Positions 1,225-30,537 of a stretch of DNA of 45,610 bases are shown here, in pieces. Origin of the DNA: a virus. The notes under the pieces are model-generated. The model did not search any database. It saw only the letters and a program-made list of their open reading frames with translations, and was not told where the DNA came from. Position 1 is the first letter of the stretch; each line of letters starts with the position of its first letter. The stretch is taken from positions 1 to 45,610 of IMG/VR virus record IMGVR_UViG_3300031972_000064; one strand, 5' to 3'. The position numbers and the translations under genes were made by a program.

Positions 1225-1672
1225 TCAGTACGATAAAACCAGAAAGAAATTTAACGAGAATTTCCGCAAGATTACGAAGGCAGAGGTTGCAGACCTCACA
1301 CCCGGTCAACGTAAAATCTATAATGAGATCGTTGCAAATGAAAACATTGCTGCTGTTCCGAAGAGCAGCTCTGAAACTATGGGCGGACGTGTGCGTTTGC
1401 GTGAGTTTGACTCCGAAACATTCAAGCCTGTCAGGCTAAGAACTATCACATCCGGAAAAGACAGGGCTGCAGGAATACGTCAAACAAGGCGCGATAAAGC
1501 AAACGAGTACAAAACAAACCTAGACTTCCCCGGCGCAAGCAAGGGATACTCTACTGAGTTAGGAATGTCCGTGCCCAAGCCAAAGCCACGCACGGCACCC
1601 CGTGAGAAGCTGGCTCATGGAGGTTCTGCTTGTAAGGGCCGCTCCGCACAAAGCAGCGCGGAGAAGTCCTAG
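1214..1672 (+). CDS. Hypothetical protein between terminase subunits, 152 aa
   Basis: The protein is hydrophilic and basic, with a helical N-terminal third (KTRKKFNENFRKITKAEV) and a low-complexity Pro/Lys/Ser C-terminal tail. No domain is recognised. The start overlaps the end of the small subunit, with AAGAGG upstream as ribosome-binding site. Its stop TAG shares a base with the GTG start of the large subunit, so the three genes are probably translated as a coupled unit. Position suggests an accessory packaging role, but that is inference only. Confidence 0.65.
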   Translation: MALDQYDKTRKKFNENFRKITKAEVADLTPGQRKIYNEIVANENIAAVPKSSSETMGGRVRLREFDSETFKPVRLRTITSGKDRAAGIRQTRRDKANEYKTNLDFPGASKGYSTELGMSVPKPKPRTAPREKLAHGGSACKGRSAQSSAEKS

Positions 1673-3342
1673 TGGCAGGACGCCCTAAGAAAGACCCCAA
1701 CGCACCCAAAGCCTCGTACAACCTGTCCGTAAAGGAACGTGCCCGTCGTGCTGCTCAAAAGAAACTGAACGGAGCCAAACGCCGCGCAGCCAAAACAACG
1801 AAGGCAGCCGAAGACAAACGCAGATATGCCCGCAATCTTGAAGCAAAGATAACAAAGGTAGAAAAGGCACTTGTTGGTACGGAAACTAAAGTCGTTGATC
1901 AAGGAGACTTGTCTGAACTGCCTAGTGCCGTTTCAGAGTTGGTCAAGGACAGTGAGATTGTATTCCAGCCCAACGCTGGGCCGCAAGAAGAGTTTTTGTC
2001 TGCTGGTGAACGCGACGTATTATACGGTGGTGCAGCCGGTGGCGGAAAAAGTTTCGCGCTTCTTGCAGACCCGTTACGCTTTTGTCACAATAGCAACCAT
2101 CGCGGTCTACTGCTTCGTCGCACTCTGGACGAACTAACCGAACTGATCGACAAGTCACGCCAGCTATACACAAAAGCTTTTCCCGGTGCAAAGTTTCGTG
2201 AGTCCAAGTCAACGTGGCACTTTCCCTCCGGGGCAACAATCTGGTTCACCTACCTAGACAAAGACAAAGACGTAACTCGCTTTCAGGGACAGGCGTTCAA
2301 CTGGATAGGCATTGATGAGATTACCCAATATCCTACACCCTACGTCTGGGATTACCTGCGTTCTCGCCTTCGTACTACTGATCCTGAACTCCAGCAACAC
2401 TTGTACATGCGCTGCACTGCCAACCCCGGAGGAGTGGGTGGTTGGTGGGTCAAGAAAACCTACATCGACGGAACCCCAGAAAACAAGCCTTTTCCTGCGT
2501 TCGATATAGAGACAAAAAAAGACTTTGTGTGGCCCCCCGGCCACGAAAAAGCAGGTCAGCCGCTGTTCTTTCGTAAGTTTGTACCGGCACGGCTGACTGA
2601 CAATCCCCATCTGATGGCAGACGGCCAGTACGAGGCCATGCTCAGATCGCTCCCAGATGTCGAACGAAAGCGACTTCTTGAAGGGGATTGGGACGTGGCA
2701 GAGGGAGCGGCCTTCCCAGAGTTCAGCCGCACCAAGCACGTCGTAGAGCCGTTCGAACTGCCAACCAACTGGCCGCGCATACGAATGGCCGACTACGGTT
2801 ACGCTGCACCCTCATGTGTTTTGTGGGGCGCAATCGACTGGGACAACAACATTTGGATTTATAGAGAATTATACGAAAAACACTTGACAGCGGAAGAGTT
2901 AGCCGCTAAAATACTATCAGCGGAACAACTAGACCCCATACCTCACTACACGGTCCTTGACTCGTCTTGCTGGAACAAGACAGGTTTTGGGCCATCAATC
3001 GCAGAGGTAATGATGCGGCAGGGTGTTCGTTGGACACCAGCAGACCGTAATCGCATTCAAGGCAAAATGGAAATACACCGTCGCCTAGCCGATGATCCCT
3101 ACACAGAAGAGCCTCGCCTACGTTTCTTTTCTAGCTGCCAGAACATAGTCAAACAAATTGCTGGCATACCCCTGTCCAAAACAAACAGCGAAGATGTAGA
3201 CACAAAGGCAGAGGATCACGCATACGACGCCTTGCGCTACGGAATGATGACACGCATGAGCGGGTATGCTTCCATACACAAACAACTGGGTGCGATAAAG
3301 AATCAAGTCCACCAAGTTCAAGACGAAGTATTTGGGTACTAA
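1672..3342 (+). CDS. terL: Terminase large subunit
   Basis: This is the ATPase and nuclease motor that packages DNA into proheads. Walker A GGAAGGGKS is at residues 119-127 and Walker B WIGIDE at 211-216. A coupling-type TANPGG motif is near 249-254. The C-terminal RNase H-like nuclease has acidic residues at D374 (MADYG), D430 (VLDSS) and D515/D519 (DHAYDALRYG). The 556-aa length is a little above usual because of an N-terminal basic extension of about 75 residues. That extension begins with an AT-hook-like GRPKK and continues as a probable coiled coil. Translation starts at GTG 1672, with GGAGAAG upstream and overlapping the previous stop. Confidence 0.95.
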   Translation: MAGRPKKDPNAPKASYNLSVKERARRAAQKKLNGAKRRAAKTTKAAEDKRRYARNLEAKITKVEKALVGTETKVVDQGDLSELPSAVSELVKDSEIVFQPNAGPQEEFLSAGERDVLYGGAAGGGKSFALLADPLRFCHNSNHRGLLLRRTLDELTELIDKSRQLYTKAFPGAKFRESKSTWHFPSGATIWFTYLDKDKDVTRFQGQAFNWIGIDEITQYPTPYVWDYLRSRLRTTDPELQQHLYMRCTANPGGVGGWWVKKTYIDGTPENKPFPAFDIETKKDFVWPPGHEKAGQPLFFRKFVPARLTDNPHLMADGQYEAMLRSLPDVERKRLLEGDWDVAEGAAFPEFSRTKHVVEPFELPTNWPRIRMADYGYAAPSCVLWGAIDWDNNIWIYRELYEKHLTAEELAAKILSAEQLDPIPHYTVLDSSCWNKTGFGPSIAEVMMRQGVRWTPADRNRIQGKMEIHRRLADDPYTEEPRLRFFSSCQNIVKQIAGIPLSKTNSEDVDTKAEDHAYDALRYGMMTRMSGYASIHKQLGAIKNQVHQVQDEVFGY

Positions 3343-5310
3343 ATGGAAACCGAACAGTTTAAACAACTAGCAGAATCCGGTGAGTTGACTATGGGTCAGG
3401 CGTTAGATCACGCTATGACTATGCCTAAAGCTGGTTCTAGAATACAAGATTTGAAAAAGGCTATTGCGGCTGGAAAATTAGGAGACACCACTCTAGACAC
3501 TCCTTTAAAAGAAGCACTTAATAGTGAAAGTTTTTTAAGTAACGTAGATACTCCACGAGCAAATTATTACGTTGGAGTACAAGGGTTTGAGGGTGCGTTA
3601 AAAAAAGCATTTATAAGAGCAAAAATTCCGTACTTGTCTACGTTAGGTCTTGAAACAGACTTAACAGATATTTTAAAAGGAGGAGGGTATTCTGAGGGAC
3701 AACTTAGACGAACTCGTTCAATGGAAGCCCTTATTCCTTCGGGGGATCTTGACGAAGCCTACGCCGATGCGTTTACAAATATGAGTGCTGATAAAAATAT
3801 TAGTGATGACACAAAACGATTTTTATTTTTTCACAAAAACACCATAGTTCGTGTTGACACTGTTTTAGGAGCTAAAGCTACAAAAACTACTCCTGCAAAA
3901 CCTCCTGCAACATTAGCAGATATAGTTATAAGTAAAGACCCCAATACAAAAGAATTAACCGTAACCTTAAAAGGTGAAAAACGAGTAAATAAAACTAGGC
4001 TAGATGTTACTTACAAAGGAACTATGGCTGCGTTCCTAAAAGAACAGTTTGATATATCCAAAGCCGCAAACCCCGGAAAAAAATTAAAAGACATAAAACT
4101 GTTTGACACCACAAAAAGTAAAACAGATGCTGCACATAACAAACACATAAAGCCAATAGTAGAAGAACGATTTCCTACACAAATACCCGTCGATCCAAAG
4201 AGTGGAGAATCCGGATGGCGACCTACAGATATTAGGTCGGCAGTTCAAGATCAATTAGAAAAAGAATTTGAAATAAATTTTGCACTAGCTGAAGACTTTG
4301 CAGGACACAAAGTAAAAGATGCGTACAAATCAGCGCAAGCAAATCCAGCTAAGATTGGAGAGATTGCAGAAAATCTCGTTAGACAAACTGCAAAAAATTT
4401 AAATACCCCTACGACTAATAGTGTAATTGCAGCTAAGTTTGGTATTCCTACTACGGTATTTAATGCGGAAGGCACGGCTTCATTTCCAGCATTAGTTGAA
4501 GATTATCGCGGAGCAGGACAAGCTCTTCAACCTGCTGTGCCTTTAACTGAGGCACAAAAAGCTGAAATGGATGCGTCTGCGTTTTTATCCGCTGAAAAAC
4601 AAACTGCTAAAGCACTAGACCTTCAACAACAAAACATAGAAAAAGCAGCAGCACTAGATGTTGATAAAGCTAGGGAAGGAATTGAAAGACAAGACCAGCT
4701 TGCTGCCCTAAGACAAGAACAAAAAGACATAAAACAAGCCGCTAAAGTAGCAGAAGCTGATGCTAATTTTGATACCTACCTAGATGATATGGCGGAAGAA
4801 TACGGTGTTGAAAAGGCTGATAAAGGCATAATATCTCGTGCTACTGACGTAGGTGGAAAAGTAATAAGAGGTCTTTTGCCTGTAGCGATAGGAACAAGCA
4901 CCATAGCGGCTACTAGAGAAGCAGAAGCACAAGGAGCATCCCCGTTTTCCGCTGCAATGCAAGGGCTGGCTGCAGGGGCTTCAGAGGTCGTTGCCCCTCC
5001 CGGCATGGCATACAGTGACGCACCCTTTCGTGAAGAGCAACGAGCCACTATGCCCGCTGGATCAGGTCTTGGCCCCCGAACAGATGTAGCACCACAGATG
5101 GACGCAATGGGGTATATCAAACCAGAGTTTGCGCCGTACCCGATGGAAGCTGCTCCCCAACCTAACATCCCCGATCCCGCACCCTCTGCGCCTGATATGG
5201 CTGCACAAGGGTTCGTACCAGTTCCCGAAGCCCGCGCCAATGCGATGCGGGGGGAAGCAACCGCGATGGATCAAGCACCATCGTTTCTTTACGGCGGCGT
5301 AGTCCGCTAA
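3343..5310 (+). CDS. 655-aa protein with possible degenerate tyrosine-recombinase-like domain
   Basis: The gene starts directly after the terminase stop and lies before the portal. Residues about 100-335 show the order of a tyrosine recombinase catalytic domain: an Arg in a helix followed by a DI segment (R170, LADIV 191-195), a beta-hairpin with Lys (210-213), DIRSA with R298, AGH with H322 and Y328. The usual His of HxxR is Thr here, so activity is doubtful. Residues about 400-500 are coiled coil. Residues 500-520 are hydrophobic. The last 125 are Pro/Ala/Met-rich, end LYGGVVR and are GC-richer. The first 520 codons are clearly AT-rich compared with the terminase and portal genes. The protein may be a structural or head-associated protein with an acquired module. 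The recombinase reading is inference from motif spacing only. Confidence 0.5.
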   Translation: METEQFKQLAESGELTMGQALDHAMTMPKAGSRIQDLKKAIAAGKLGDTTLDTPLKEALNSESFLSNVDTPRANYYVGVQGFEGALKKAFIRAKIPYLSTLGLETDLTDILKGGGYSEGQLRRTRSMEALIPSGDLDEAYADAFTNMSADKNISDDTKRFLFFHKNTIVRVDTVLGAKATKTTPAKPPATLADIVISKDPNTKELTVTLKGEKRVNKTRLDVTYKGTMAAFLKEQFDISKAANPGKKLKDIKLFDTTKSKTDAAHNKHIKPIVEERFPTQIPVDPKSGESGWRPTDIRSAVQDQLEKEFEINFALAEDFAGHKVKDAYKSAQANPAKIGEIAENLVRQTAKNLNTPTTNSVIAAKFGIPTTVFNAEGTASFPALVEDYRGAGQALQPAVPLTEAQKAEMDASAFLSAEKQTAKALDLQQQNIEKAAALDVDKAREGIERQDQLAALRQEQKDIKQAAKVAEADANFDTYLDDMAEEYGVEKADKGIISRATDVGGKVIRGLLPVAIGTSTIAATREAEAQGASPFSAAMQGLAAGASEVVAPPGMAYSDAPFREEQRATMPAGSGLGPRTDVAPQMDAMGYIKPEFAPYPMEAAPQPNIPDPAPSAPDMAAQGFVPVPEARANAMRGEATAMDQAPSFLYGGVVR

Positions 5311-5334
5311 ACAACCCAACAAACGGAGGCATAC

Positions 5335-5553
5335 ATGCCCGGTAATAACTACAACTACGGCGCATCGTACATTATGAACGCAGACAAGACAAGCGTTGAT
5401 AAAGACGAAGGTGCATCTTCACTCTACCGCGAAAGCCTAGAGTTTGACACTCGTGTCCAAACAGGACCGATGATCGAAGCAATGCCAAAAAAACAAACCA
5501 AGCCTACGGTAGAAGCTTCACTTTTTAAAATGGCAGACGAACGCGACTACTAA
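5335..5553 (+). CDS. Small hypothetical protein before the portal, 72 aa
   Basis: The 72-residue hydrophilic protein has a Tyr/Asn-rich N-terminus and an acidic C-terminal end (MADERDY). It has a strong ribosome-binding site (GGAGG, seven bases before ATG 5335). It sits between the 655-aa protein and the portal, with short spacers, in the same operon. No domain is recognised. A minor head or portal-associated component is the most economical guess from position, but the sequence itself gives no proof. Confidence 0.7.
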   Translation: MPGNNYNYGASYIMNADKTSVDKDEGASSLYRESLEFDTRVQTGPMIEAMPKKQTKPTVEASLFKMADERDY

Positions 5554-5562
5554 GGAAGCGAT

Positions 5563-7686
5563 ATGTCCGATAACTTTTTGGAACCTGCGGACGACACCGC
5601 CGTACCAGTCTTTGAACCCGAAGAGCAAATGCCGGGTTTGGCTGCGTATGTAAAGGCACGATTTGACGACGCAGAAAACGGACGGTTTTCGTACGAGCAG
5701 CGATGGCTGAGAGCGTACAAAAACTTTCGTGGCATTTATGATTCTACAACACAATACCGTGACAGTGAAAAGTCAAAGGTGTTCATCAAGATTACCAAGA
5801 CAAAGGTGCTTGCTGCGTACGGTCAGATTGTAGACATCCTTTTTGCAAACAAAAAGTTTCCATTGGTCATAGAGCCAACTCCCATACCAGAGGGTATAGC
5901 AGAGTTTGCCCACCTTACTACTCCGCTAGATCAAATGCAACCTCCGGAAGACCCGTACGGATTTGAGGGTGATGGTCGTGAGTTGCCGTTTGGTGCCACG
6001 CAAGCTACCCCTGCCTCTGGCGATTTTTTGGGTGGACTAGCTAGCCAGTACGGTGATGCACCCCTGTCTGAAGGCCCAGCCAAAATGGGTGAGCCACAGA
6101 TTAGCCCTGCACAAAAGGCTGCACTCAACATGGAGAAGATGGTTCACGATCAGCTTCTTGATACACGTGCAGTAAACGTGCTTCGTAGTTCTATCTTTGA
6201 ATCCGCTCTGCTAGGTACAGGAGTTGTAAAGGGTCCGTTCAATCACTACAAACGGGTACACCGCTGGGAAAACGGACCAGAGGGACGAGTGTACAGTCCG
6301 TACGAGCGTATTGTTCCTCGTATCGAACACGTATCCCCGTGGGACTTTCATCCTGATCCCTCTGCTACAAGCATAGACGATTGCGAATACGTAATTCAAC
6401 GACACCGCATGAACCGTCAACAACTTCGTAACCTTATCTCACAGCCTCACTTTTACGCTGACGCTATTGAAGAGTGCCTTGCAAAAGGACCAAACTACGA
6501 AGACAAGTATTACGAAGACACCATTCGTGAAGAAGAGACTGAGCCGTACGTCGGTGACAGTCGTTACGAAGTTCTTGAATATTGGGGCTTCCTTGATGCC
6601 AAACTTGCACGAGAAGCGGGACTAGACATTCCTGCTGACATGAGTGAGTTTGAACAGGTACAAGTGAACGTGTGGGCATGTGGTACCCTGATCCTACGCT
6701 GCGTTATGAACCCATTTACGCCAGCCCGTATACCTTACCAAGTGTTTCCATATGAAATCAACCCGTACCAAGTGTGGGGTGTTGGTGTTGCAGAGAACAT
6801 GGAAGACGCACAACTGCTGATGAACGGCCACGTTCGTATGGCAATCGACAATCTGGCGTTGGCGGGTAACCTAGTGTTTGATGTGGACGAAGCTTCACTT
6901 GTTCCCGGACAAAACATGGATATCTTTCCCGGTAAGATATTCCGCCGTCAGTCCGGTGTAACAGGGACGGCAATCAACGGCCTCAAGTTTCCGAACACAG
7001 CACCTGAAAACATTCAGATGTATCAAATCAGCCGACAACTTGCTGACGAAGAAACAGGTTTGCCGTCGATTATGCACGGTCAAACAGGAGTAACGGGCAC
7101 GGGACGCACAGCATCTGGACTGTCTATGTTGTTGGGCGGAGCAAGTCTGTCCCTTAAAACGGTGATTAAGAATATAGACGACCAGCTTCTCAAGCCACTG
7201 GGTGAAGCGTACTTTCAGTGGAACATGCAGTTCAACGAAAGTTCCCCGGAGATTGAGGGTGACCTAGAGATTAAACCTCGTGGTGTAGCTGCAGTGATGC
7301 AAAAGGAAGTACGCAGTCAACGACTAACTACACTGCTACAGACAGTATCCAATCCGATGCTGGCACCGTTTATCAAAATACCAAACCTCATGCGTGAACT
7401 GGCTATTGCACAAGACATTGATCCTGACAGCCTTGTGAACGACATGAACGAAGCACAGATTTTTGCAGAGATGTTGAAAGGACTAGCCAATGCTCAACAA
7501 GAAGCAAGCCAGCAAGGTCAGCCCGCTGGTGGCGAACAAGGAAGCGTGGGACAGTCTGGAGGAGTACCTGCAGGAGCAAATCCGAATGACGCTTCGGGCG
7601 TTGGTGGCGGCACAATCGGAACTGGAAGTGTTCCGGCTGCAGGGGAAGATAACTTCACTGGAACAGATCAAGGGATTGAAGGCTGA
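5563..7686 (+). CDS. Portal (head-tail connector) protein
   Basis: The 707-aa protein would form the dodecameric ring at the packaging vertex. Features typical of large podovirus portals are a helical N-terminal part with RFSYEQRWLRAYKNFRG (about residues 42-58), a Pro/Gly-rich loop (about 120-180), a SPWDFHPDP segment near 260, and a late helical stretch (LADEETGLPSIMHG) near 490. The last 75 residues are Gly/Ala/Gln low complexity and are overprinted by another gene in the +1 frame. The ribosome-binding site AAGGAAG precedes ATG 5563. Position after terminase and before the scaffold and capsid genes, together with length, makes the call strong although no catalytic motif exists for the family. 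Confidence 0.85.
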   Translation: MSDNFLEPADDTAVPVFEPEEQMPGLAAYVKARFDDAENGRFSYEQRWLRAYKNFRGIYDSTTQYRDSEKSKVFIKITKTKVLAAYGQIVDILFANKKFPLVIEPTPIPEGIAEFAHLTTPLDQMQPPEDPYGFEGDGRELPFGATQATPASGDFLGGLASQYGDAPLSEGPAKMGEPQISPAQKAALNMEKMVHDQLLDTRAVNVLRSSIFESALLGTGVVKGPFNHYKRVHRWENGPEGRVYSPYERIVPRIEHVSPWDFHPDPSATSIDDCEYVIQRHRMNRQQLRNLISQPHFYADAIEECLAKGPNYEDKYYEDTIREEETEPYVGDSRYEVLEYWGFLDAKLAREAGLDIPADMSEFEQVQVNVWACGTLILRCVMNPFTPARIPYQVFPYEINPYQVWGVGVAENMEDAQLLMNGHVRMAIDNLALAGNLVFDVDEASLVPGQNMDIFPGKIFRRQSGVTGTAINGLKFPNTAPENIQMYQISRQLADEETGLPSIMHGQTGVTGTGRTASGLSMLLGGASLSLKTVIKNIDDQLLKPLGEAYFQWNMQFNESSPEIEGDLEIKPRGVAAVMQKEVRSQRLTTLLQTVSNPMLAPFIKIPNLMRELAIAQDIDPDSLVNDMNEAQIFAEMLKGLANAQQEASQQGQPAGGEQGSVGQSGGVPAGANPNDASGVGGGTIGTGSVPAAGEDNFTGTDQGIEG

Positions 7687-7720
7687 TTATGAAGCTGCGG
7701 TGGATGTAAAGAATGGCTAA
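7490..7720 (+). CDS. Overprinted small helical protein inside the portal 3' end
   Basis: This 76-aa ORF lies almost wholly within the last 197 bases of the portal gene, in another frame. It looks like a real protein: an SKVSPLVANKEAWDSLEEY opening followed by two amphipathic helices (a LRALVAAQ-type helix and a FRLQGKITSLEQIKGLK helix). Short helical proteins of this sort follow the portal in many podoviruses. The portal tail read from the same bases is low complexity, as expected where the second frame is constrained. AAAGGA lies eight bases before ATG 7490. The stop overlaps the start of the next gene (7713) by eight bases, consistent with coupling. Confidence 0.8.
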   Translation: MLNKKQASKVSPLVANKEAWDSLEEYLQEQIRMTLRALVAAQSELEVFRLQGKITSLEQIKGLKADYEAAVDVKNG

Positions 7721-9689
7721 TGAGTTTTTAAAATCAGTGGTAGACCTCGCTGTTTCTCCTCCAGAACGTCCGTCAGTAGGAACTCCTAGTCCATACGAGG
7801 AAGATGATCCTGACCGTCGTCACGAAAAGTTTGGGATAACACGGTACACTGATCCGGGTTACTACAAGTCTGCGGGACAAGTTGCGGGATCAGATGATCG
7901 CAGCGGTTCTAAATTTTATTCTGGCACAATGGGAGTGTCCAGTTTAACTGGTAGTGTGGCTGATAACTTTGTAGGTATGCCCAAAGGTCTAGGAATGGGC
8001 TTGAGCATGATGGGTGTATCCGGCTTTGGCGTCGGAGCCATGATGAGCCTAAAGAATTTAAGTAATATTGAAGAAAAAATGAAAGCGGGAGAAGCTGGTT
8101 ACGGCGTTGGAGTGTTTAACAATCGTATTATTGGTGTTTCTCCGGGATTGTTTGGAGGGTACACTTTGTCTGGTGTTCTTCCAGAGGGATTAACAAATAA
8201 ACAACGCCAACAACTCATTGACAGTCTTTTGGGAATTTCTGCTGGTCAAAATCCTCCGGGCGATGACACTGACGGAACTCCTCCGGGCGATGACACTACT
8301 CCGGGAGATGACGGCGACCCAACAACACCTCCGGGATACAATCCTGATCTTCCGTATGACGGATACAACCCGTACCCCGATGAAGGTAATAGACCCACAC
8401 CTACACCTCCGTCTGATGGCGGCGGCAGCGGTCCTAACTACCCTGCTCCTAACCCCATTGATGACGTTGTTCCGGGTGATCCCCCGCCGTCCCGTCCTCC
8501 GTCTCGTCCCGACAATCGCCCACCACAGTCTGATGGCGGCGGCGGCGGCGGACAACACCCATCTGATCCCGGTGGAGGTGGCGGAGGCGGCGGCAGTTCC
8601 GGTGGAGGTGGCGGAGGCGGCGGCAGTTCCGGTGGAGGTGGCGGAGGCGGCCACGGTACAGACAATGATCCCGGTTATGGGGGAGGTTACAGAGCCTCTG
8701 GTGGCCCTGTAGGCTTTGCAGAGGGTGGTACCACCAAAAAAGACCCAATTCAGTCTACGGGCTTTGTAGACGGCCCACCGCAAAACTATGCAAAAGGCAC
8801 CACTGTAGCTGACACAGAAAATCACCGTGTACGTGTAGGTTCGTTTGTTCTTAACGCACCAACTACAGAACGACTGCAAAAAGAAGGAAAGCTACCAAAA
8901 GGTCCACAAAAGCGCAGGGCTGCAAAAGGCGGCAAAATGATGGATGTAGCCCTCTCTAAAGGTGAGTACGTTATTGACGTAGACGACATTGACAAGTTTG
9001 GTGGGTACGACGCCCTTAACGCAGAGAACGACAAGGGCAAGCCAGAAGTAGATCGCAGACAAGCAGCAATGGGCGGCAGTTTTTTAGACGGATACTCAGA
9101 AGGCGGAGAATTACCTCTTTCAAGAATTAAACTAGACAACTCTACCAAAACAAAATTTAACACGTTTTTAAAGAGTCGTCGTCAACGTGCAGATGTTGAA
9201 AAACTAATTGATAGTATGGACGACAGAGAGCGTTTGGCTGTGTTAGCCCTAGCTGAAACGACTGCTGCTACTGACCCTGTTGAATCTATGATGGGCGTAG
9301 GACAAACAGCAATAAATCGAGCCAGAAGCAACAGACGAGATTTTTCTAAAGTAAATGATCTTGGAGCAGTAATGAAACAACGCTCTTTTCGTGGCAGCGG
9401 AAGTAAAATGTTTCAGTACGATGGATTAGAGCCGGGTGTTCTTAGCAAAAGACTTACAGAGGTAGTTAAGGGGCAGGTTCCCGGAGCAGTAACTAAAATG
9501 TTTTCTGCTGCAGATAATCTTTTAAACCCTGAAACAGAATCTGATCCTATAATTCCATTTGATGTGATGTTTTACACCACTCCTGATGCTCCTCTTGCAA
9601 AGAACTTTGAAAGAAATCCTTTGCTAAGATACACTAAAAGTTTTGGAGGGCATGATTATTACGCCCTAGATGCTGCACCAGAAAATTAA
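7713..9689 (+). CDS. Virion-associated protein with SleB-like cell wall hydrolase domain
   Basis: The 658-aa protein has several zones. Residues 1-90 are polar. A hydrophobic Gly/Met segment at about 91-112 could insert in membrane. Residues 180-320 form a long Pro/Asp then poly-Gly/Ser linker encoded by tandem repeats. A LSKGEYVIDVDDI segment near 415-428 resembles a motif of phage internal or structural proteins. The C-terminal domain (about 500-655) resembles SleB/CwlJ-type hydrolases: RERLAVLALAETTAA with candidate catalytic E515, then GVGQTAINRARSN and FQYDG. It would cut peptidoglycan, probably during DNA entry because the gene lies in the head-gene block rather than the lysis cassette. 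The hydrolase call is by motif resemblance. Confidence 0.7.
   Translation: MANEFLKSVVDLAVSPPERPSVGTPSPYEEDDPDRRHEKFGITRYTDPGYYKSAGQVAGSDDRSGSKFYSGTMGVSSLTGSVADNFVGMPKGLGMGLSMMGVSGFGVGAMMSLKNLSNIEEKMKAGEAGYGVGVFNNRIIGVSPGLFGGYTLSGVLPEGLTNKQRQQLIDSLLGISAGQNPPGDDTDGTPPGDDTTPGDDGDPTTPPGYNPDLPYDGYNPYPDEGNRPTPTPPSDGGGSGPNYPAPNPIDDVVPGDPPPSRPPSRPDNRPPQSDGGGGGGQHPSDPGGGGGGGGSSGGGGGGGGSSGGGGGGGHGTDNDPGYGGGYRASGGPVGFAEGGTTKKDPIQSTGFVDGPPQNYAKGTTVADTENHRVRVGSFVLNAPTTERLQKEGKLPKGPQKRRAAKGGKMMDVALSKGEYVIDVDDIDKFGGYDALNAENDKGKPEVDRRQAAMGGSFLDGYSEGGELPLSRIKLDNSTKTKFNTFLKSRRQRADVEKLIDSMDDRERLAVLALAETTAATDPVESMMGVGQTAINRARSNRRDFSKVNDLGAVMKQRSFRGSGSKMFQYDGLEPGVLSKRLTEVVKGQVPGAVTKMFSAADNLLNPETESDPIIPFDVMFYTTPDAPLAKNFERNPLLRYTKSFGGHDYYALDAAPEN
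8571..8652 (+). repeat. 30-bp tandem repeat encoding Gly8-Ser2 units
   Basis: Two perfect 30-base copies (8571-8600 and 8601-8630) and a partial third (8631-8652) encode runs of eight glycines and two serines. An upstream GGC run at about 8538-8550 and duplicated CCGGGCGATGACACT blocks (8266-8300) show the same tendency to expand. In the protein this is a flexible linker between the N-terminal part and the hydrolase half. Copy number is likely to vary between relatives. Confidence 0.9.
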
Positions 9690-12198: not shown

Positions 12199-12237
12199 TG
12201 CTCATCCCTTCCGGGGTAAACTACACAGGAGATGGCG

Positions 12238-12927
12238 ATGAATTATATCACAAGTAACATTCCATATTTTAAGGCTTGGGTACGAAGAGAATACACAACC
12301 AATCACGATAGATACCACGGTGAATTTTTACACGCTATGGTTATTGGAGTCACCACTTTACCAATGCGTACCATGTCTTTTCAAGTCTTGTTTACAGGAT
12401 GCGAAGACGAAGAAAACAACGTACATGGTGGTGCCATGTGGGCACGTATGCCTCTCACAGCACTGGTGGGTGATACGCCCTTAGATGAATGGCCTACACC
12501 AATACCAACATACTTGGCCCAGCCGTGGGATTGTCAATCACATCACCATTCAGTATTTGTGTTGAATAGGGGTACGCCCTGTCCGTGGTTGGCAAAGATA
12601 GATGGAGAATTTTATCCTGCAAAGTATTACTTCACTGTGGACTACACAGATACTGAAGTAGCAGATGATCCGGCGCAACACAAACAGAGTCATGTGCTTG
12701 AACTTTTAGATGCTGGTGAGTGGACAGGAAATATGGTTGCCCTACCAAACAACAGGGTACGAGTTACAAACCCAGCGTGGTTTGTTACGGGCGACGGCCC
12801 ACCGGACTTCGCTCCTAGTCAGTGGGTCCATCATTCTAAACAAGACCCGAACTATGTGAGCGACACAGCACGGGTATTCAACAACCTCTATGCGGAGAGT
12901 GATTATGAAGAAGATGATGAAGAGTAA
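12238..12927 (+). CDS. Hypothetical protein, 229 aa, first gene after the internal promoter
   Basis: The protein is Trp-, His- and Pro-rich with an acidic tail (ESDYEEDDEE). Segments such as FLHAMVIGVTTLPMRTMSFQ and QPWDCQSHHHSVFVLNRG look like a compact globular fold. I recall similar proteins in cyanophages and other marine phages, without known function. ATG 12238 is chosen over ATG 12232 because AGGAG ends at 12231, which gives a normal six-base spacing only for the second ATG. The gene has its own promoter and is followed, with overlap, by a cluster of tiny basic proteins. Confidence 0.75.
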   Translation: MNYITSNIPYFKAWVRREYTTNHDRYHGEFLHAMVIGVTTLPMRTMSFQVLFTGCEDEENNVHGGAMWARMPLTALVGDTPLDEWPTPIPTYLAQPWDCQSHHHSVFVLNRGTPCPWLAKIDGEFYPAKYYFTVDYTDTEVADDPAQHKQSHVLELLDAGEWTGNMVALPNNRVRVTNPAWFVTGDGPPDFAPSQWVHHSKQDPNYVSDTARVFNNLYAESDYEEDDEE

Positions 12928-19470: not shown

Positions 19471-22400
19471 ATGGGCGCATCTTACACACGACAGTCATCG
19501 TATGCTGACGGAGACATTATTCAAGCGTCCGACAGTAACAACGAGTTCAATCAGTTACTGGCTGCATTTGCTGCAAGCACTGGACATACACACGATGGCA
19601 CTGATGCAGAGGGTGGCCCAATCACCAAGCTGCTTGGCAACACACTTACATTTGGTGCAGCTACGGCTGGCACAGACATTACAGTCACATTTGACGGGGA
19701 GTCAAACGACGGTGTACTCAAATGGATGGAAGACGAAGATTACTTTGAGTTTTCTGATGACATCCTTGTAGCCAGCACAGAGAAGCTGCAGTTTCGGGAT
19801 ACGGCTATCTATATCCACTCAAGCGCAGATGGGCAGCTTGACCTTATAGCTGACACGGAAATCCAGATTGCTGCCACCACTGTAGATATCAACGGTAACG
19901 TAGACATATCGGGCACACTGACAATTGGTGGTGCGGATATCTCTGAAGCAGAACTTGAAATACTCGACGGTGCAACAGTCACCACAGCCGAAATAAACAT
20001 CATGGATGGTGATACGTCTGCCAGTGCTACTACTGTAGTAGACGCTGACCGTGTTGTCTTCAACGATGCAGGAACTATGAAACAGGTGGCGGTCACAGAC
20101 TTAGCTGCCTATTTTGATGACGAAATTACGGCGATGCCAAACCTTGTTACCACCGCAGCTACGACTGTGGGGGCACTCAACTCTGGTTCGATCACGTCTG
20201 GTTTTGGTACGATTGACACAGGATCGTCAACCATAACAACCACAGGTTTAATTACAGGCGGTTCTCTGGATATTGACGATGTAGTTATCAACGGCACAAC
20301 AATCGGTCACACGGATGATACCGATTTGCTTACCGTTGCTAGTGGGCTGCTGACTGTGGCAGGTGAAATATCTGTGACTACACTGGATATAGGTGGTACA
20401 AATGTAACGTCTACAGCAGCGGAATTAAACATTCTTGATGGTGTAACGTCCACGGCAGCAGAACTAAACATTCTTGATGGTGTAACGTCCACGGCAGCAG
20501 AACTAAACATTCTTGATGGTGTTACTGCTACCACTGCAGAGCTTAACTACAGTGACACAGGTGCTGCTGTAGGCACAGTTGTAGCTAGTAAAGTAGTTAC
20601 AGCAGATGCTAATAAAGACGTAGCCAGCTTCCGTAATATTACTTTAACAGGTGAGTTGGACGCAGGTTCGCTTGACGTATCAGGTGACGCAGACATTGAT
20701 GGAACCCTAGAAGCAGATGCGATTACGGTTAATGGTACAGCACTAAATACAGTTATTGCAGGAGTAACAGTTGCTAATGCTACTTTGGCAGCAACAACTA
20801 CCGTTACTGACAGCACAGCTAACACTAACTTCCCTGTTGTGTTCCATGACGAATCAAATGGACTGCTGGATGACACTGGTGCTTTGCGATATAATCCAAG
20901 CACAGGCGAACTGTTAGTACCTAAACTTACTGTGGCAGGTACAACGACCACCGTAGATACCGTTACGATGAATGCAGCAAATGCCATTATTTTCGAGGGT
21001 GCCACTGCTGACGCTAACGAAACTACACTTACTATTATAGACCCGACGGCGGACCGCACGATTAACCTTCCCGACCAGTCGGGCACAATTCCTTTGCTGG
21101 CTGCAGCAAGTAACACAGCCATTACGTCTACCCCTGCCGAACTAAATATCCTTGACGGTGCTACAGTAGTCGTAGGCGAAATCAACGCACTTGATTTGGG
21201 TTCAACAGCAGTCGGTAACGCTATTGCATCTAAGGCAGTTATACTAGACTCCAATAAAGACTACACAGGCATTCGCAACTTTACAATTACTGGTGAGTTG
21301 GATGCAGGTTCTCTTGACATATCCGGTGATGCAGACATTGACGGTACTTTAGAAGCTGATGCAATCACGTTAGATGGCACAGCGATTACCACAGTAGCTA
21401 CTCTGTCCACTGGTATATCTAATGGCAATCTGCCTGTGTTTACTAGCGGTGCTGCCGACAATGACTTCTTACGTATTGACGGTACATCCATTGAAGGACG
21501 TTCTGCATCAGAGGTGCTGTCGGATATAGCAGCAGCACCAGCGGCAGGAAGTTCTAACATTGTTACAACGGGTGCGATAAACAGTGGCAGCATCACCAGC
21601 GGATTCGGTGCTATTGATAATGGATCAAGTGCCATAACAACTACGGGCACAATTACCTTTGGCAGTATATCAGATGGCACAATAACGGCCACAGCATTTG
21701 TTGACGAAGACGACATGGCGTCTAACAGTGCAACTCTTATTCCTACACAGCAATCTGTTAAAGCCTACGTTGATAATGAGATAACTGGTGCGGGTGCTAT
21801 GGCTAGCTTCCAAGTGGAAGATGATGACGGCACAGAAGTTACAATCAACAACGCCAAAGAACTAAAGTTTATCGGTTCAGGAATAACCACTAACTTTACT
21901 GACACGTCCACGGGCAATGACGGTGATCCATTTGATCTTACATTTACAGTTGACGCTGCACAGACAGGCATTACCTCTATCTTGGCTACAGACTTAAAGA
22001 TTGGTGAGGATGACCAGACCAAGATTGACTTTGAGACTGCAGACGAAATACATTTCTATGCGGCTAACGTGGAACAGGTATACTTGGGTGACAACATCTT
22101 TGGGCCACAGTCTGACAGTGACGTTGACTTGGGCAGCAGTTCTGTGCGGTGGAAGGATGCGTATGTAGATAGCATCACCGTAACAGGCGAGGTAGACGGT
22201 GCTACCCTAGATATATCAGGAAATGCAGATATTGATGGCACCCTTGAAGCTGATGCTATTACAGTGGATGGGACTGCGCTAGATACGTTCATTGGTAACA
22301 CTCTCACTGCATTCCCTACAAATACGGATGCAGCCTCTAGTGATCTATTAGTCGTATATGATGTAACAGCAAGTAGGTGGGAAAAACAAACTATAGCTAA

Positions 22401-22992
22401 TGCTGCATTGGCAGGACCAACTGGCCCAACAGGACCCACTGGACCCACTGGTCCCACTGGACCTGCTGGCGATGATGGTGGTGCTGGACCCACTGGCCCT
22501 GCTGGCCCTGCTGGACCGACTGGTTCTGCTGGCCCTGCTGGCCCTGCTGGACCAACTGGACCGACTGGCCCTACTGGCCCAACTGGATCAACGGGGCCAA
22601 CCGGACCATCAGGACCGACAGCAGGAAACATTGACGGCAATTTGGTTCTGTACGCCGAAGGCTCAAACAACCACCGTGTGGATGTAAGGCAAGGGTCTGC
22701 GAAGGCTTGGCACAGCTATGTTGGCACAGGAACCGTAAGCACAAGTGACAGCTACAATGTCTCAGCATTAGCCGATCTTGGAACAGGGTCTTATCGCACC
22801 AGTTTCACAAATTCCACCAGCAATTCAGATTACTCTGTAACAACTTCAGCAAACTTTAATGACTCTCAATGTGACATTGCTGGGGTTGTGAGCAGAGCAA
22901 CGACAAGTTGTGACACTGATTGTATGCACGATGATGGTGGCGCACGTGACATGGCAGACGTTTACCTTACGCTTCACGGAGACTTAGCGTAA
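19471..22992 (+). CDS. Long tail fibre with [10 protein letters not shown] and collagen-like repeats, 1173 aa
   Basis: The N-terminus ([21 protein letters not shown]) is a typical virion-attachment segment, followed by a [18 protein letters not shown] motif common in tail fibres. Residues about 310-360 hold tandem [10 protein letters not shown] units. Three copies of a module of about 36 residues ([19 protein letters not shown]) lie near 390, 605 and 902. Residues 982-1050 are 23 uninterrupted Gly-X-Y triplets, mostly GPT and GPA, which should form a collagen triple helix. The last 123 residues form a Cys-containing tip with [18 protein letters not shown], likely the receptor-binding head. 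It begins right after the nozzle stop. Two likely assembly genes and an oxygenase follow. Confidence 0.88.
20404..20559 (+). repeat. 39-bp tandem repeats in the tail fibre gene
   Basis: Units start at 20404, 20443 and 20482, with a diverged fourth at 20521. Each encodes thirteen residues around [10 protein letters not shown]. The second and third units are nearly identical, pointing to recent duplication. Single diverged copies recur further along the fibre (near 19950 and 21130). The repeats are likely a stack of short beta-turn units in the fibre shaft. Confidence 0.9.
22414..22620 (+). repeat. Collagen-like Gly-X-Y repeat region in the tail fibre gene
   Basis: Sixty-nine codons form 23 consecutive Gly-X-Y triplets. 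Pro is at X in nearly all, and Thr or Ala at Y in most. GPT dominates. At the DNA level this is a 9-base repeat (GGACCCACT-like) with much silent variation, so length changes by recombination are likely. The protein segment should trimerise as a rigid collagen-like rod just before the fibre tip. Confidence 0.92.
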
Positions 22993-23806: not shown

Positions 23807-24355
23807 ATGAGAAATACGTGGCAAATGTGGAGTGCGGGAATATCTGAAGAAACCATTAAAGAAATAGAACAACAAACCGAATCAGTACCACAACAAGAAG
23901 CCACCGTATTTGCTGGGGCAAAAAGTATACCGGACGTTAGACGTTCTAACATTAAGTGGCTTACAGGAAACTCTTTTGTTTTAAACATCCTTTGGGCGTA
24001 TGTACAAGAAGCTAATAGAAATGCTTTTAATGTAGATGTTTGTCAGGTAGCTGACATACAGTATACAGAGTATCATGCTTCTGAAAAAGGACACTACGGA
24101 TTACACCACGATATAAATTGGGAATCAACTAAAGCATTTGATAGAAAACTATCGGTAACTGTTCAGCTATCTTCCCCAAATGATTATGAGGGTGGAAACT
24201 TTTCTTTTACAGAAGTAGAGACTCCTCCGAAGCAGTCTAGAGCCAAAGGAACGGTATTAATATTTCCTAGCTACCTACAGCATCAAGTAACACCCGTGAC
24301 AAAGGGCGTTAGAAAATCTTTAGTCGCATGGTTTGAAGGTCCAAGATGGAGATAG
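23807..24355 (+). CDS. 2-oxoglutarate/Fe(II)-dependent oxygenase (prolyl hydroxylase-like)
   Basis: The 182-aa protein has the double-stranded beta-helix core of the prolyl-4-hydroxylase/PKHD group. Its HxD iron ligands are H100 and D102 (YGLHHD), the distal ligand is H159 (YLQHQVTPV), and the 2-oxoglutarate-binding Arg is R169 (GVRKSL). The segment ADIQYTEYHASEKGHYG precedes HxD as is usual in the family. The enzyme would couple 2-oxoglutarate decarboxylation to hydroxylation of a protein or other substrate. The gene is AT-rich compared with the fibre gene, hinting at separate acquisition. It sits two genes after a fibre with 23 Gly-Pro-X triplets, which makes the fibre a candidate substrate (inference). 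Confidence 0.85.
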   Translation: MRNTWQMWSAGISEETIKEIEQQTESVPQQEATVFAGAKSIPDVRRSNIKWLTGNSFVLNILWAYVQEANRNAFNVDVCQVADIQYTEYHASEKGHYGLHHDINWESTKAFDRKLSVTVQLSSPNDYEGGNFSFTEVETPPKQSRAKGTVLIFPSYLQHQVTPVTKGVRKSLVAWFEGPRWR

Positions 24356-24570: not shown

Positions 24571-25917
24571 ATGTCAGACGATACAGACGACAAAATTGTT
24601 AACATCTCTCAGGCGGATAAAGATGTTATAAAGCAGATGGAGGATCAGGCAAAAACCAGTTCTGAACTTCCAACTGGGGCCACGATTGATCCCGAAGATC
24701 AAACAGTTCAAACAAACGAGTTGCTCACTACTGCAGGAAAACAGATTGATTCTCCTACTGATGTTACTCAACCTACAGCTATAACTAGCACAGATCAAAC
24801 TAAACCAACTACGTTTGACGCCGGTACCTTTGACGCAACACAAAAAGCAGGTGAAGTTGGTACGGCAGCGGCTGCAAAGGGCAAAGTATCCGACGAATCT
24901 GTGATGACTGCTGCACAGGGCACTGTTTCTCCCGAAGCATTAGCTACCGCAGCAACCCAAGAACTTGACCCGAAAGCAACTACTCGCTACCAACTTGCAG
25001 AGTTGTTCAAGGGTATTGAAGAGGGTGGCCCTCCCCCTGCGTGGGCTGCACCTGCTGTCCGTAAAGTAACAGCCGTCATGCAGCAACGTGGTTTGGGTGC
25101 GTCTTCTATGGCTGCAGCCGCTACGATGCAAGCGATGATGGAGTCTGGTATTCCTATCGCAGCCCAAGACGCACAAAAGTACGCCACTATTCAACTGCAA
25201 AACCTGAACAATGAACAACAGGCTGCACTGCAAAACGCAGCCGCTGTGCTGCAGATGGACATGGCTAACCTCAACAACAGACAACAAGCTGCAGTAAACA
25301 ACGCCAAAGCGTTTCTTTCTATGGACATGCAAGACGTAACAAACGAACAGCAGTCCAACAACCTGACCTACCAGTCCAAGCTACAAGCGTTGCTGTCCGA
25401 CCAAGCTGCCGACAACGCAGCCAAACAATTCAACGCAAAGTCAGAAAACGAAATCAACACGTTCTTTGCAGAGATGGGTGCGTCGATTGAAGCGTCAAAC
25501 ATCAACCGTGACATAGCTGTTAAGCAGTTTAACTCAAACCAAAAGGTTGCAATCGCACAGTTTAATTCTCAAATGGACGTTGCGGCAGACCAATTCAACG
25601 CAAATATGCGCCTTGAAATAGATCAAAGCAACGCCGTGTGGCGGCGCACAGTAAACACTCGTAACACTGCTGCACAAAACGAAGCAAACAGACAAAATGC
25701 ACTGAACTTGTTGGGTATTCAACAAAACGCACTAAACAACTTGTGGCAAAGGTATCGTGACAAGGCTGCGTGGACAATGAAAATATCAGAAAACGCAAAG
25801 GACCGCGCACACAATGCTGCCATGCAGTCTGCAGCGATTGCTGCTAATGCAGATGCGTACGACACGAAGTATGATAACTACTTAAAACACGAAATAATTG
25901 ATAAGATCTGGGGATAA
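24571..25917 (+). CDS. Helical virion protein, 448 aa
   Basis: The first 110 residues are low-complexity Thr/Asp/Gln (DQTVQTNELLTTAGKQ). From about 110 the protein becomes a long Ala/Gln/Asn-rich helix with recurring NLNNEQQAALQNA, NNRQQAAVNNAKAFLSMDMQ and QFNAKSENEINTFFAEMG segments, probably an extended coiled coil. The DPKATTRYQLAELFKGIEEGGPPPAWA segment near 133-159 is a pattern I recall from marine phages. No enzyme motif is present. With the following genes it probably forms internal virion or ejection components, or a rod-like tail part. The start lies three bases after the previous stop. Confidence 0.7.
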   Translation: MSDDTDDKIVNISQADKDVIKQMEDQAKTSSELPTGATIDPEDQTVQTNELLTTAGKQIDSPTDVTQPTAITSTDQTKPTTFDAGTFDATQKAGEVGTAAAAKGKVSDESVMTAAQGTVSPEALATAATQELDPKATTRYQLAELFKGIEEGGPPPAWAAPAVRKVTAVMQQRGLGASSMAAAATMQAMMESGIPIAAQDAQKYATIQLQNLNNEQQAALQNAAAVLQMDMANLNNRQQAAVNNAKAFLSMDMQDVTNEQQSNNLTYQSKLQALLSDQAADNAAKQFNAKSENEINTFFAEMGASIEASNINRDIAVKQFNSNQKVAIAQFNSQMDVAADQFNANMRLEIDQSNAVWRRTVNTRNTAAQNEANRQNALNLLGIQQNALNNLWQRYRDKAAWTMKISENAKDRAHNAAMQSAAIAANADAYDTKYDNYLKHEIIDKIWG

Positions 25918-25920
25918 CAA

Positions 25921-26526
25921 ATGAGTTGGCTTTCTAAACTTGTAGGCGGTAAAACATTGAAAATTGCAGCAATCGCTGCTGCAGGATATGCAGGTAGAGA
26001 GTATATATTTGGAAATCAAATAGGGTCTGTATACGACACTGCAACAGGAAAATACATACCGGGGGGTTACTCCGGAGGTAACTTTGCGGCTAAGACTTTT
26101 AATTACTTGGGTGTTACGCCGTTTTCTGAAACTAAGATTGGTTCATTTTTACAGCCACTTACCAGTAAGTATACTCCGGGACTTACTTTAGATCCCGTAG
26201 GGGATGCGGTAGCTGCAGGAGCAAGGGCTTTAACTGCTCAACAAAGATTTGATGCTATGCCCACTGCTGGGGGAATACAAGCTTCAGGAGTTCGTTCAGA
26301 CACTAATTTTCAAGCGGGACAAGCTGGCAAGTTTCCAATCGGTAATAATGGGCAAGTTGGTACTGCTCTAGGCAGTGAGGCCATGAGACAATATCTTGCA
26401 AAACAAGTACGTATGATGGGCCTTCCTGTAGCTTCAGGGTTACCTACCGGTTCTTCTGTGTCAACGGCAGGATTAGCCGCTACTACAAGTGCAAAACGTA
26501 GGCAGTACAAAGGACTCGTAAGCTGA
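25921..26526 (+). CDS. Hypothetical virion protein, 201 aa
   Basis: An N-terminal hydrophobic patch (TLKIAAIAAAGYAGREYIFG, residues about 12-31) could contact membrane. The rest is Gly/Ala/Thr-rich with a basic end (SAKRRQYKGLVS). No family is recognised. It starts three bases after the previous stop, and its own stop overlaps the next ATG, so it belongs to the internal virion protein operon. The DNA is AT-richer than the fibre region, as are the next genes to 35550. A membrane-active ejection component is possible from the N-terminus. Confidence 0.6.
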   Translation: MSWLSKLVGGKTLKIAAIAAAGYAGREYIFGNQIGSVYDTATGKYIPGGYSGGNFAAKTFNYLGVTPFSETKIGSFLQPLTSKYTPGLTLDPVGDAVAAGARALTAQQRFDAMPTAGGIQASGVRSDTNFQAGQAGKFPIGNNGQVGTALGSEAMRQYLAKQVRMMGLPVASGLPTGSSVSTAGLAATTSAKRRQYKGLVS

Positions 26527-27074
26527 TGATGGATAAAATTACAGCACTTGCTGTACCTCCGGGAAACTCTCTTACAGATGCTCCCGGCAAATGGCAGTGG
26601 GAGCAACCACCCCGGTTTCCAAATCCGGATGACGCTGTTGATTACGCTGTAGAGATGATGACAAACGGCCCTGTTCGTGACGACATGTTGAAAATGATGT
26701 TGGCTGGAATTACTGTGGAGGAGCTAGTTGAACAGCTTTCCTTTAAAGGATTTATGGCAGGAGCGTTTACACCTGACGTGGCAGAAATTATCAAGCCCGC
26801 GCTAGGAATTACTCTTGTTGACATGGCATTACAAGAGGGGTTTGAACCTCAAATGTTTGTTGACGAAAAACCAGTGGAAGGACAAGTAGAGGATTCTACG
26901 TTCTTTGAGATTGCAAAGGATAGAAACCCAGAGTTGTATGACGCCATGAACGAGATGATAAACAAAGAACAGCGTATGGCTAGTTCGAATGATGAGAGAG
27001 CTACCGTTACTTATCCTCAACAAAAACCATCTTCTGAGTCATTTCTTAACGTGCCCACAGAAAAGGTAGAGTAG
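26526..27074 (+). CDS. Hypothetical acidic helical protein, 182 aa
   Basis: The protein begins with a Pro-rich segment (ALAVPPGNSLTDAPGKWQWE), then helices DAVDYAVEMMTNGPVRDDML and GITVEELVEQLSFKGFMAGAFTPDVAEIIKPAL. The C-terminal third is acidic and low complexity. I recall similar proteins near structural genes of marine phages. No catalytic motif is visible. Its place between two virion-type genes, and the stop-start overlap with the upstream gene, indicate a structural or assembly role. There is a one-base gap to the 1149-aa gene. Confidence 0.65.
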   Translation: MMDKITALAVPPGNSLTDAPGKWQWEQPPRFPNPDDAVDYAVEMMTNGPVRDDMLKMMLAGITVEELVEQLSFKGFMAGAFTPDVAEIIKPALGITLVDMALQEGFEPQMFVDEKPVEGQVEDSTFFEIAKDRNPELYDAMNEMINKEQRMASSNDERATVTYPQQKPSSESFLNVPTEKVE

Positions 27075-27075
27075 T

Positions 27076-30000: not shown

Positions 30001-30525
30001 GATGATATTGCTGAAGAAGCAGCAACAGCAGACACCGAAACAAAAAGATTGTATGCTGTTCGTCAGCTATACATCGTATCTCTTGCGTATGAACTGTCCG
30101 CAACGATGCAGGGTGGAACAGGAGGTCGTACGATATCTGACCAAGACGTTGCCATCATACTCAGTGCCCTTCGTCAAAAGTTTACGGCATCTCCTGAGTC
30201 ACAGGTTGCTGTCCTAGAGGAAGTACGACGCATTGCTAGGGACATCAACACTGACATGGGTTTTCAAATGTCTCAAGATGAACAAACAGCAGCAGCGTAC
30301 TACTTTGTAAAAGGTTTGTCCGCCGTTAACAATGATCCTCGCGGGTTCCACAAAACAATAACGGCATCATCTGTTGCGGCTAGAATTAGAGGCAGCAGAC
30401 CCGGAGGAAACGTGGATGATACAGGAATACTCAACACGATTAACCTGCAAAACGGAACTAATTACCAAAGTCTAGACGAAGTTCCTAGTGATATTATAGA
30501 CGCAGCCCGTGGGTCCATCGGTTAA
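27076..30525 (+). CDS. Large internal virion protein, 1149 aa
   Basis: Residues about 15-85 are a charged coiled coil (RQKKDQKAAANLAQQEAIQAI onward). The remainder is a mix of predicted helical and beta segments with few cysteines (one pair near 694-707, VIGCNVPGQYGEFCKKRL) and no recognised enzyme motif. The last 250 residues are helical (DEAVSRVSGFLKNGNASG, then VLEEVRRIARDI). Size and position, between tail genes and an even larger protein, parallel podovirus internal core proteins that are ejected into the host envelope with the DNA. No hydrolase domain is visible here. The gene is AT-rich compared with capsid genes. Confidence 0.65.
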   Translation: MSAILEIGLALAGDYRQKKDQKAAANLAQQEAIQAIREQEAAIDLKRQEASFDLQKQSALKTQDEAIAIRKEERDDLRKTRELKVHTIMWGKGNQIKSVTYGPAQLQLPPGEGWTQLATSIGVEPGSTGQPFLKNTDYLEDIPKPLYNVRGTPMTADEATADASRRLSPEAMLLFDPGISIGERTRKNGNRIFNDEEYKRVAGSLQKTVLSVVNENNEITTGTLAQVRPIAEATGNDIMEVTTEVDSRGTPLGPSSSKKFSGVPDPNRQEINIVYDAWIPTKSGGTTQLSNVTEDELDTALAKRGLVRSDVAFEAQKITTDKYTNEVLGIDVFERYTPKDVTFEKSAVDVLFPDGSFLSDISPTDLAAHLQVRSLTENQVTVIPKTLKFLNGEPSSTISGDIRYPSGIVHFGFVTENGERKRVQAESPAALKLMFQNNSTYEYGGSEEGAGAERKTTPADARTDVLYFGPNLPTEGALGSTLTQDEKRVALSSREVKVDPVTREIIDTGDRKNTEFALLRSKMNVPFLLEGTEVLLGAPSDLDMPVQLARMNLKLQGSNLQQLIDNNQSEDYINAFGPLIYGHVSSMEAQSKMDTGVSILAGKSVTKYTLDMYPNFAKIPGMKKYLFNIERQKIGSSIESITEQLGENANHGEIPIVAETSTNPATMDDDNNAPTPTHNGAQSLVIGCNVPGQYGEFCKKRLIPIMNAVNSGVAEENKSKLNLLNLMNKEFGPDGRPVTQINENGDAIVQIKPVQPLVDKLMSFDSEVLGTDETSGAKITYLTRFIDAANGKTTNATDFEYMSSYVTAAGSLNDAVIGVVPFITSIQSTQLDGTTFVPPALRDAAKRNGIGEFSTNIADRNFVALSAKQLSANKVIDYSGMLINSLYDAETGTYRASTGVGELELTVRGLFYLRDEAVSRVSGFLKNGNASGIANTIKDNINEYKARILEEAREVNPAAFNEENAQAQAEINKIIDDIAEEAATADTETKRLYAVRQLYIVSLAYELSATMQGGTGGRTISDQDVAIILSALRQKFTASPESQVAVLEEVRRIARDINTDMGFQMSQDEQTAAAYYFVKGLSAVNNDPRGFHKTITASSVAARIRGSRPGGNVDDTGILNTINLQNGTNYQSLDEVPSDIIDAARGSIG

Positions 30526-30537
30526 CAGGAAAATTTT

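Follow-up and report, generated by a model that had tools for sequence, protein, structure and literature searches.

Why should a gene with the catalytic residues of a tyrosine recombinase lie between the terminase and portal genes of a marine phage? The question is raised by a virus record of 45,610 bp (IMGVR_UViG_3300031972_000064), analysed over its whole length and referred to here as the window. It derives from an uncultivated HMO-2011-type marine podophage, and its portal and terminase proteins show about 45-57% identity to those of HMO-2011-type podophages (Pelagibacter phages HTVC103P, HTVC115P and HTVC033P, the CRP phages, and HMO-2011). The available text of PMC9038755 presents phages of this type as dominant in the ocean, with a broad distribution. 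The gene itself (3343..5310, +) is intact and encodes 655 amino acids, with its ATG directly after the stop codon of the large terminase subunit gene (TAAATG). That gene (TerL, 1672..3342, +) and the gene for an SU10-type portal protein (5563..7686, +), both identified by PHROGs and Pfam matches, form the left and right borders of what is called the slot. A 72-aa ORF (5335..5553, +), for which neither PHROGs nor Pfam gave a match, is found between the recombinase gene and the portal gene. By its sequence and predicted structure, ORF 3343-5310 encodes a tyrosine recombinase within the block of packaging genes. The slot protein is read here as a putative working site-specific recombinase of exchangeable specificity, a reading given a probability of roughly 0.55.

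Much of an earlier, sequence-only reading of this gene is borne out by its residues. R170, K210, K213, R298 (in TDIR), H322 (in AGH) and Y328 are all present where that reading had placed them, R298 and H322 are 24 residues apart and H322 and Y328 are 6 apart, and threonine (T295, codon 4225..4227, +) does occupy the position of the His in the HxxR motif. The codons, all on the + strand, are 3850..3852 for R170 (Arg I), 4234..4236 for R298 (Arg II), 4306..4308 for H322 (the third-block His) and 4324..4326 for Y328, the candidate nucleophile. The HxxR His, at a position that commonly varies among tyrosine recombinases and where Lys or Tyr may also stand, is the only catalytic residue missing from the window protein. 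In seven aligned close relatives (from 15 viral contigs) R170, R298, H322 and Y328 are invariant, but these proteins are 78-100% identical to that of the window.

More distant homologues were gathered from loci retrieved by their portal genes, with an iterated profile run over the 8,479 ORFs of 169 sequences. The profile gave 105 matches, representing 87 distinct proteins; both counts are lower bounds, since the profile was still gaining when it was stopped (from 40 to 104 members below 1e-3 in six rounds). Every one of the 105 lies at or beside the slot. Ninety are flanked on both sides, 13 precede a portal gene on contigs with no terL, one follows terL on a contig with no portal gene, and the remaining one (L115) misses the distance rule for terL by a few bases. 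Among the 106 portal-retrieved loci that have both flanking genes, the slot holds a family member in 71, and in the remainder it is short or otherwise occupied. The loci include near-duplicate contigs, and the pairs and proteins counted are not independent. Three large slot proteins (L065, L071 and L077) match the tyrosine recombinase family PF00589 above the cut-off and fall outside the iterated family.

Other kinds of genes have also been detected in this location. For example, in isolate phiM6 the slot holds a GDSL-type esterase (L025:5222-6829), and in isolate RHph_N3_19 it holds an FAD-oxidoreductase protein (L026:3935-6484), so that the slot has the look of a general hot-spot for insertion. 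Four further slot proteins searched against 50,697 phage records gave no match. A core structural gene was ruled out as an explanation for the slot gene, as the isolates examined have either nothing or a different gene there.

Residue conservation across the family centres on the active site. In 41 divergent slot sequences, with identities down to 15%, invariance is confined to the columns of R170, K217, F254, R298, H322 and Y328, that is, the R-K-R-H-Y pentad and one Phe (F254); the rows were chosen by an R...[GS]H pattern, which pre-selects R298 and H322 and leaves R170, K217 and Y328 unselected. This alignment (A5) consists of the window protein and 40 of 41 references, the near-identical L003 having been omitted. 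The four residues for which the sequence-only reading had looked to conservation, R170, R298, H322 and Y328, are thus kept in 41/41, two of them with that pre-selection. Its beta-hairpin lysine has to be moved. It had been placed at 210-213, where Lys occurs in only 13/41 (K210) and 10/41 (K213) of the sequences, and the conserved residue is K217 (codon 3991..3993, +; 41/41). At the position of T295, S or T is found in 35/41 and H in 1/41. When the family was aligned without the pattern, position 170 was R in 83/85 members, 298 was R in 70 of the 75 aligned there, 322 was H in all 49 aligned (36/85 being gapped), and 217 was K in 48/76 and R in 19/76.

Motif classes can be recognised within the family. 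By pattern, 49 of the 87 members read R...[GS]H...Y. In another 19 the HxxR His position has Tyr, Lys or Ser and the third-block His is replaced by Arg, followed by a Tyr; this class B (YxxR or KxxR, once SxxR) is exemplified by L137:3731-5671 and L051:1547-3430. The last 19 fit neither pattern, and some of them are fragments. Complete canonical motifs, with HxxR, GH and a Tyr spaced much as usual, are present in L065, L077 and L090 from the same slot. The spacing between His and Tyr is most often 10 (12/41) and is shortest in the clade of the window (6, in 4/41). With this spacing, and with a structure model of low confidence around the nucleophile (pLDDT <50 at 324-331), the competence of the window protein is less certain than that of its family.

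Selection differs between the parts of the gene. The region assigned to the recombinase, residues 1-345 (3343..4377, +), comprises a core-binding-like N-terminal part and the catalytic domain, as indicated by the structure model, its matches and profile searches. It is followed by a C-terminal extension (4378..5196, +) that has low constraint and is mosaic, as judged by dN/dS and composition. Catalytic-domain dN/dS was 0.10 (window/L005) and 0.04 (L005/L010) in the two most diverged pairs for which it could be computed, and 0.29 in the closer pair window/L004; window/L010 was saturated. For residues 350-470 the diverged pairs gave 0.41-0.53. The catalytic domain is under purifying selection, and with an intact ORF this rules out a pseudogene. 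Synonymous variability along the gene revealed no strongly conserved island (the lowest value, 0.28, was at residues 21-35). Hydrophobic stretches are not in excess in the extension, occurring in 9/84 tails and in 8.4 after shuffling.

These observations bear on whether the protein is catalytic at all. The sequence-only reading had called the domain degenerate, and that word does not stand: the R-K-R-H-Y active site is kept, the domain is under purifying selection, and the HxxR His is itself kept in L065, L077 and L090. The same reading had suggested exaptation, the fold being retained without catalysis for sequence-specific binding of DNA in packaging or in the head. The missing HxxR His and short H-Y spacing of the window protein would suit such a role, as would the Arg for third-block His in class B. 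R170, K217 and Y328 are invariant without selection among sequences as little as 15% identical, however, complete motifs exist in the same slot, and isolates with nothing, or something else, in the slot show that the gene is not a core structural one. The pentad kept amid such divergence, the purifying selection and the His of L065, L077 and L090 together make non-catalytic exaptation less likely, and it is considered quite unlikely. The slot family is better read as a set of active-looking, exchangeable recombinases than as a degenerate exaptation, and on sequence and model the slot protein probably cuts and rejoins DNA via Y328 or the equivalent residue in other members.

Structure prediction leads to the same family of enzymes. 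With the 41-sequence alignment, AF2 gave a model with pLDDT 87.9 and pTM 0.73; an alignment of only seven near relatives gave pLDDT 37.6. Cre and Tn1549 Int were the best Foldseek matches in the PDB, ahead of lambda Int and type IB topoisomerase (TopoIB); only the value for Cre (7.3e-4) was below 0.001. In VIA-align, Tn1549 Int had a Z of 10.8 over model residues 15-324 (255 aligned, rmsd 5.1), followed by XerH (10.3), lambda Int (10.1) and TopoIB (10.0); these values are middling, and differences below 1 count as ties, so that TopoIB ties with the recombinases. The matches to Tn1549 Int, XerH, lambda Int and Cre begin at model residues 1-15 and run to about 324, covering the N-terminal core-binding and catalytic domains. 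Among predicted viral structures, the best matches bearing a name were integrases. A chance motif is ruled out by conservation and fold. The recombinase-like domain is therefore borne out by conservation, structure prediction and profile searches; the predicted fold resembles Cre and lambda Int, and no unrelated fold was predicted.

In single-sequence searches with the window protein the relationship stays hidden. The window protein alone gave no match to PF00589, none to a recombinase in Pfam, PHROGs or PDB sequences, and none to phage isolates; a Pfam hit to CCDC73 was below the cut-off and was taken as composition. The profile of the 41-sequence alignment, searched against PDB sequences, had 13 matches at E up to 10, all of them tyrosine recombinases, the best being XerA (7.3e-5). 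Searched singly, 14 of the 41 members were matched by PF00589 at E up to 1 (best 3.1e-24), and above the cut-off it is found in L051, L065, L071, L077 and L090. Cre, XerH/XerA, lambda Int and Tn1549 Int have in common with the slot recombinase the two-domain fold and the R-K-R-H-Y pentad. They are only 8-15% identical to it, its HxxR His is replaced, and unlike them it has a long C-terminal extension with an end motif and is encoded in a late packaging operon.

The tie in Z score raises the possibility of an enzyme resembling type IB topoisomerases, which would, without exchanging strands, nick and relax DNA as it is packaged or once it has entered the cell. The TopoIB pentad is R-K-R-H-Y and likewise lacks the HxxR His, such an enzyme would need no fixed site, and the catalytic-domain fold of the human, poxvirus and bacterial type IB enzymes (Z 10.0 and below) is within 1 Z of the best match of the slot recombinase. 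The profile search of PDB sequences, on the other hand, recovered no type IB topoisomerase among its 13 matches, PF00589 is the family matched, and the alignment with integrase and Cre chains (model 15-324) takes in the N-terminal part as well. Nor is there an obvious reason why a generic relaxing enzyme should be exchanged as a cassette, and this reading is regarded as very unlikely.

The exchange is seen when the window is compared with its closest relatives at this locus. In L106, L107 and L158 the flanking DNA is 96.4-98.4% identical to that of the window up to position 3346, at the start codon, and again from 5197, and the 1.85 kb between 3346 and 5197 has no blastn match to any of the three. 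The exchanged stretch (3347..5196, +), or body, is thus bordered by the start codon and by the 37 codons before the stop (5197..5307, +), which are common to relatives with another body type and end in PSFLYGGVVR. Similar borders, with lower identity in the flanks, are present in L108, L028, L029, L112, L113, L114, L116 and L119. Among 114 pairs of loci with portals at least 95% identical, 46 have bodies with no blastp match or with less than 40% identity or coverage, a figure that duplicate contigs inflate, so that exchange events are fewer. The gene itself is mosaic, since L005 and L007 are protein-identical over residues 1-345 and diverged over 471-655. The 658-aa gene after the portal gene (7713-9689, +) is also patchwork, DNA matches to several relatives ending at about 7700-7733 and restarting at about 8666-8742.

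Wholesale exchange between close relatives suggests a working, exchangeable function and not a decayed relic. Near-identical phages with unrelated bodies are unlikely to share a target in their common genome, and the host or the exchanged stretch is a better place for it. On balance, judging from the sequences compared, exchange of the body would be exchange of DNA-site specificity, with the target lying in the host chromosome or within the cassette itself. The body would then serve as a cassette for specificity, kept between the terminase and portal genes and exchanged whole. Temperate phages of staphylococci have exchangeable integrase modules, near-identical phages swapping recombinases, and in these the attP travels beside int in non-coding DNA. 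The swapping is alike in the two cases, but the stretch that is exchanged here is coding, and the att search gave no attP. Extreme divergence in a fixed slot, together with the unrelated genes in the same slot of phiM6 and RHph_N3_19, could also reflect an arms race, the protein being a competition or defence factor that attacks the DNA of a rival phage, plasmid or satellite. None of the features described here points to a rival target, and a role of this kind seems highly improbable.

The same exchange weighs against a resolvase that acts late on replicated phage DNA in the producing cell and is not carried in the virion. Such an enzyme could resolve dimers or concatemers in the manner of Cre or Xer, or form ends in the manner of a telomere resolvase. 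Its place in a late packaging operon, directly between terL and the portal gene, would be apt, the fold is close to those of Cre and XerH, and telomere resolvases likewise have no HxxR His. But phages 96-98% identical nearby have unrelated bodies, and a target in the shared genome would need to be recognised by both. The window also encodes an endonuclease I (PF05367, 40335-40832), and enzymes of this type resolve branched DNA. No telomere-resolvase or protelomerase family is present among 25 of the 26 families in the Pfam table, and there is no such chain among the structure matches listed. A late resolvase is considered unlikely.

For a site-specific recombinase, the target would be expected to leave traces in phage or host DNA, and several were sought. 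A tRNA T-arm motif occurs in only 1 of 90 slot regions, with no tRNA-like att candidate; no core-like inverted repeat was detected in window 3001-5700, and no exact 15-bp DNA inside the gene is common to five members of the clade. The 20 bacterial-genome loci retrieved by portal, most of them titled as MAGs, contain no slot recombinase; a single one is a large chromosomal contig (L188, Marinomonas, 567 kb), and its examined stretch has no TerL match. Searches of 297 and 390 genomes with the 41-sequence profile, run without a positive control, gave no match at 1e-12; among the six genomes tried first, a 296-aa frame of G025 was matched at 5.2e-7. With no att-like DNA and no integrated copy found, integration, which the sequence-only reading had offered as the other possibility in the form of an unrecognised integration gene, is neither supported nor excluded.

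A recognised integrase does occur in this phage group, at a different location. The early integrase of HMO-2011 (gp09) and CRP-3 (int) is a tyrosine recombinase as well, and in HMO-2011 it is a canonical PF00589 protein of 292 aa in the early module, adjoining primase; the slot recombinase has 655 aa and is part of the packaging operon. No significant similarity between the early integrase and the window protein was detected by blastp. According to the available text of PMC6918029, a tRNA-Met gene is the integration site used by CRP-3. Of the ten recognised subgroups, IV to X are reported in the available text of PMC9038755 to lack recognisable genes for lysogeny and possibly to be obligate lytic. 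When 22 related records were searched whole for PF00589, six were matched, each inside the slot gene and three above the cut-off, and in none of the 22 was there a second PF00589 protein. No HMO-2011-like int was found in G001, G002 and G007, which have a slot recombinase-like gene together with primase and helicase. The window ends inside the helicase gene, so that an early int could lie beyond it.

The nearest parallel by position comes from a Vibrio satellite-plasmid, TG54/cf-PISP, in which a tyrosine recombinase lies between portal and head-tail adapter and which is said, in the available part of PMC13230959, to be without an integrase. Its location in a head-gene cluster is like that of the slot gene, and it belongs to a satellite-plasmid and occupies another position; the likeness is one of description only. 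In the open-licence PubMed Central texts, as far as these were available, no description of the slot recombinase was found.

A late operon is odd for an ordinary integrase because an integrase is needed early. The oddity would be removed if the recombinase were made late, held by a peptide and injected. A C-terminal peptide and a small protein of the presumed ejection cluster might hold it in the virion, and it might accompany the DNA into the next host and there act as an integrase-like or genome-circularising enzyme, perhaps starting integration or circularisation without new synthesis. That the late-made recombinase is loaded into the virion by its C-terminal peptide and delivered with the genome is put forward tentatively, as possible rather than probable, from end motifs in the sequences. 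If it is true, phages of the group without a recognised int would be wrongly called obligately lytic. Even apart from delivery, a recombinase that a plain Pfam scan misses, that looks active and that is swapped between near-identical phages may bear on the obligate-lytic view. The slot family is a large natural collection of divergent recombinases, and it makes testable why a recombinase sits in a packaging operon.

The peptide is a feature of most of the family. The motif [GSNQD]F[LIMVA] is found within the last 14 residues of 69 of the 86 complete members, and control windows elsewhere in the last ~260 residues had a mean of 5.1 and a maximum of 10 (200 draws); the 86 proteins represent 57 distinct last-9 strings and are not independent. 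A similar C-terminal motif (ESFLNVPTEKVE) is present in a 182-aa protein (26526..27074, +) of a cluster at 24571-35550 presumed, from position and size, to encode ejected internal proteins. PHROGs gave no match for four proteins of this cluster (24571-30525) or for 30538-35550. The slot protein of L062, outside the iterated family, has a weak match to a pilot protein (E 0.013).

Among 17 homologues of the 26526-27074 protein, 12 have the slot-type end motif, four end in GLM (HMO-2011, CRP-603, HTVC033P and G006), and one has neither (G005). Nine of the 12 motif-bearing records have a recombinase-like slot protein, recognised by PF00589 in G018, by a PF00589 match below the cut-off in G002, and by the family profile in the other seven. 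Of the other three, G003 and G017 have no slot recombinase and the slot of G021 is cut off. The five records without the slot-type end motif have no large gene in the slot. This co-occurrence of motif and recombinase could come from shared ancestry of the records and not from a functional link.

Some further features of the window were observed. The DNA polymerase gene is divided between two overlapping ORFs that are read in different frames, 42898-44502 (-) and 44396-44992 (-), which encode an exonuclease part and a DnaJ-like plus polymerase part. The split is likewise present in G001, G002, G003, G007, G017 and G021, and a single ORF is found in HMO-2011 and G006; G004 and G005 gave weak partial matches only, and G018 none. 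Possible metabolic genes include members of a ferredoxin family (phrog_3704, 12232-12927, +) and a 2OG-Fe(II) oxygenase family (phrog_61, 23807-24355, +). A presumed fibre-like protein of 1173 aa (19471-22992, +) has collagen-repeat and bactofilin-like Pfam matches.
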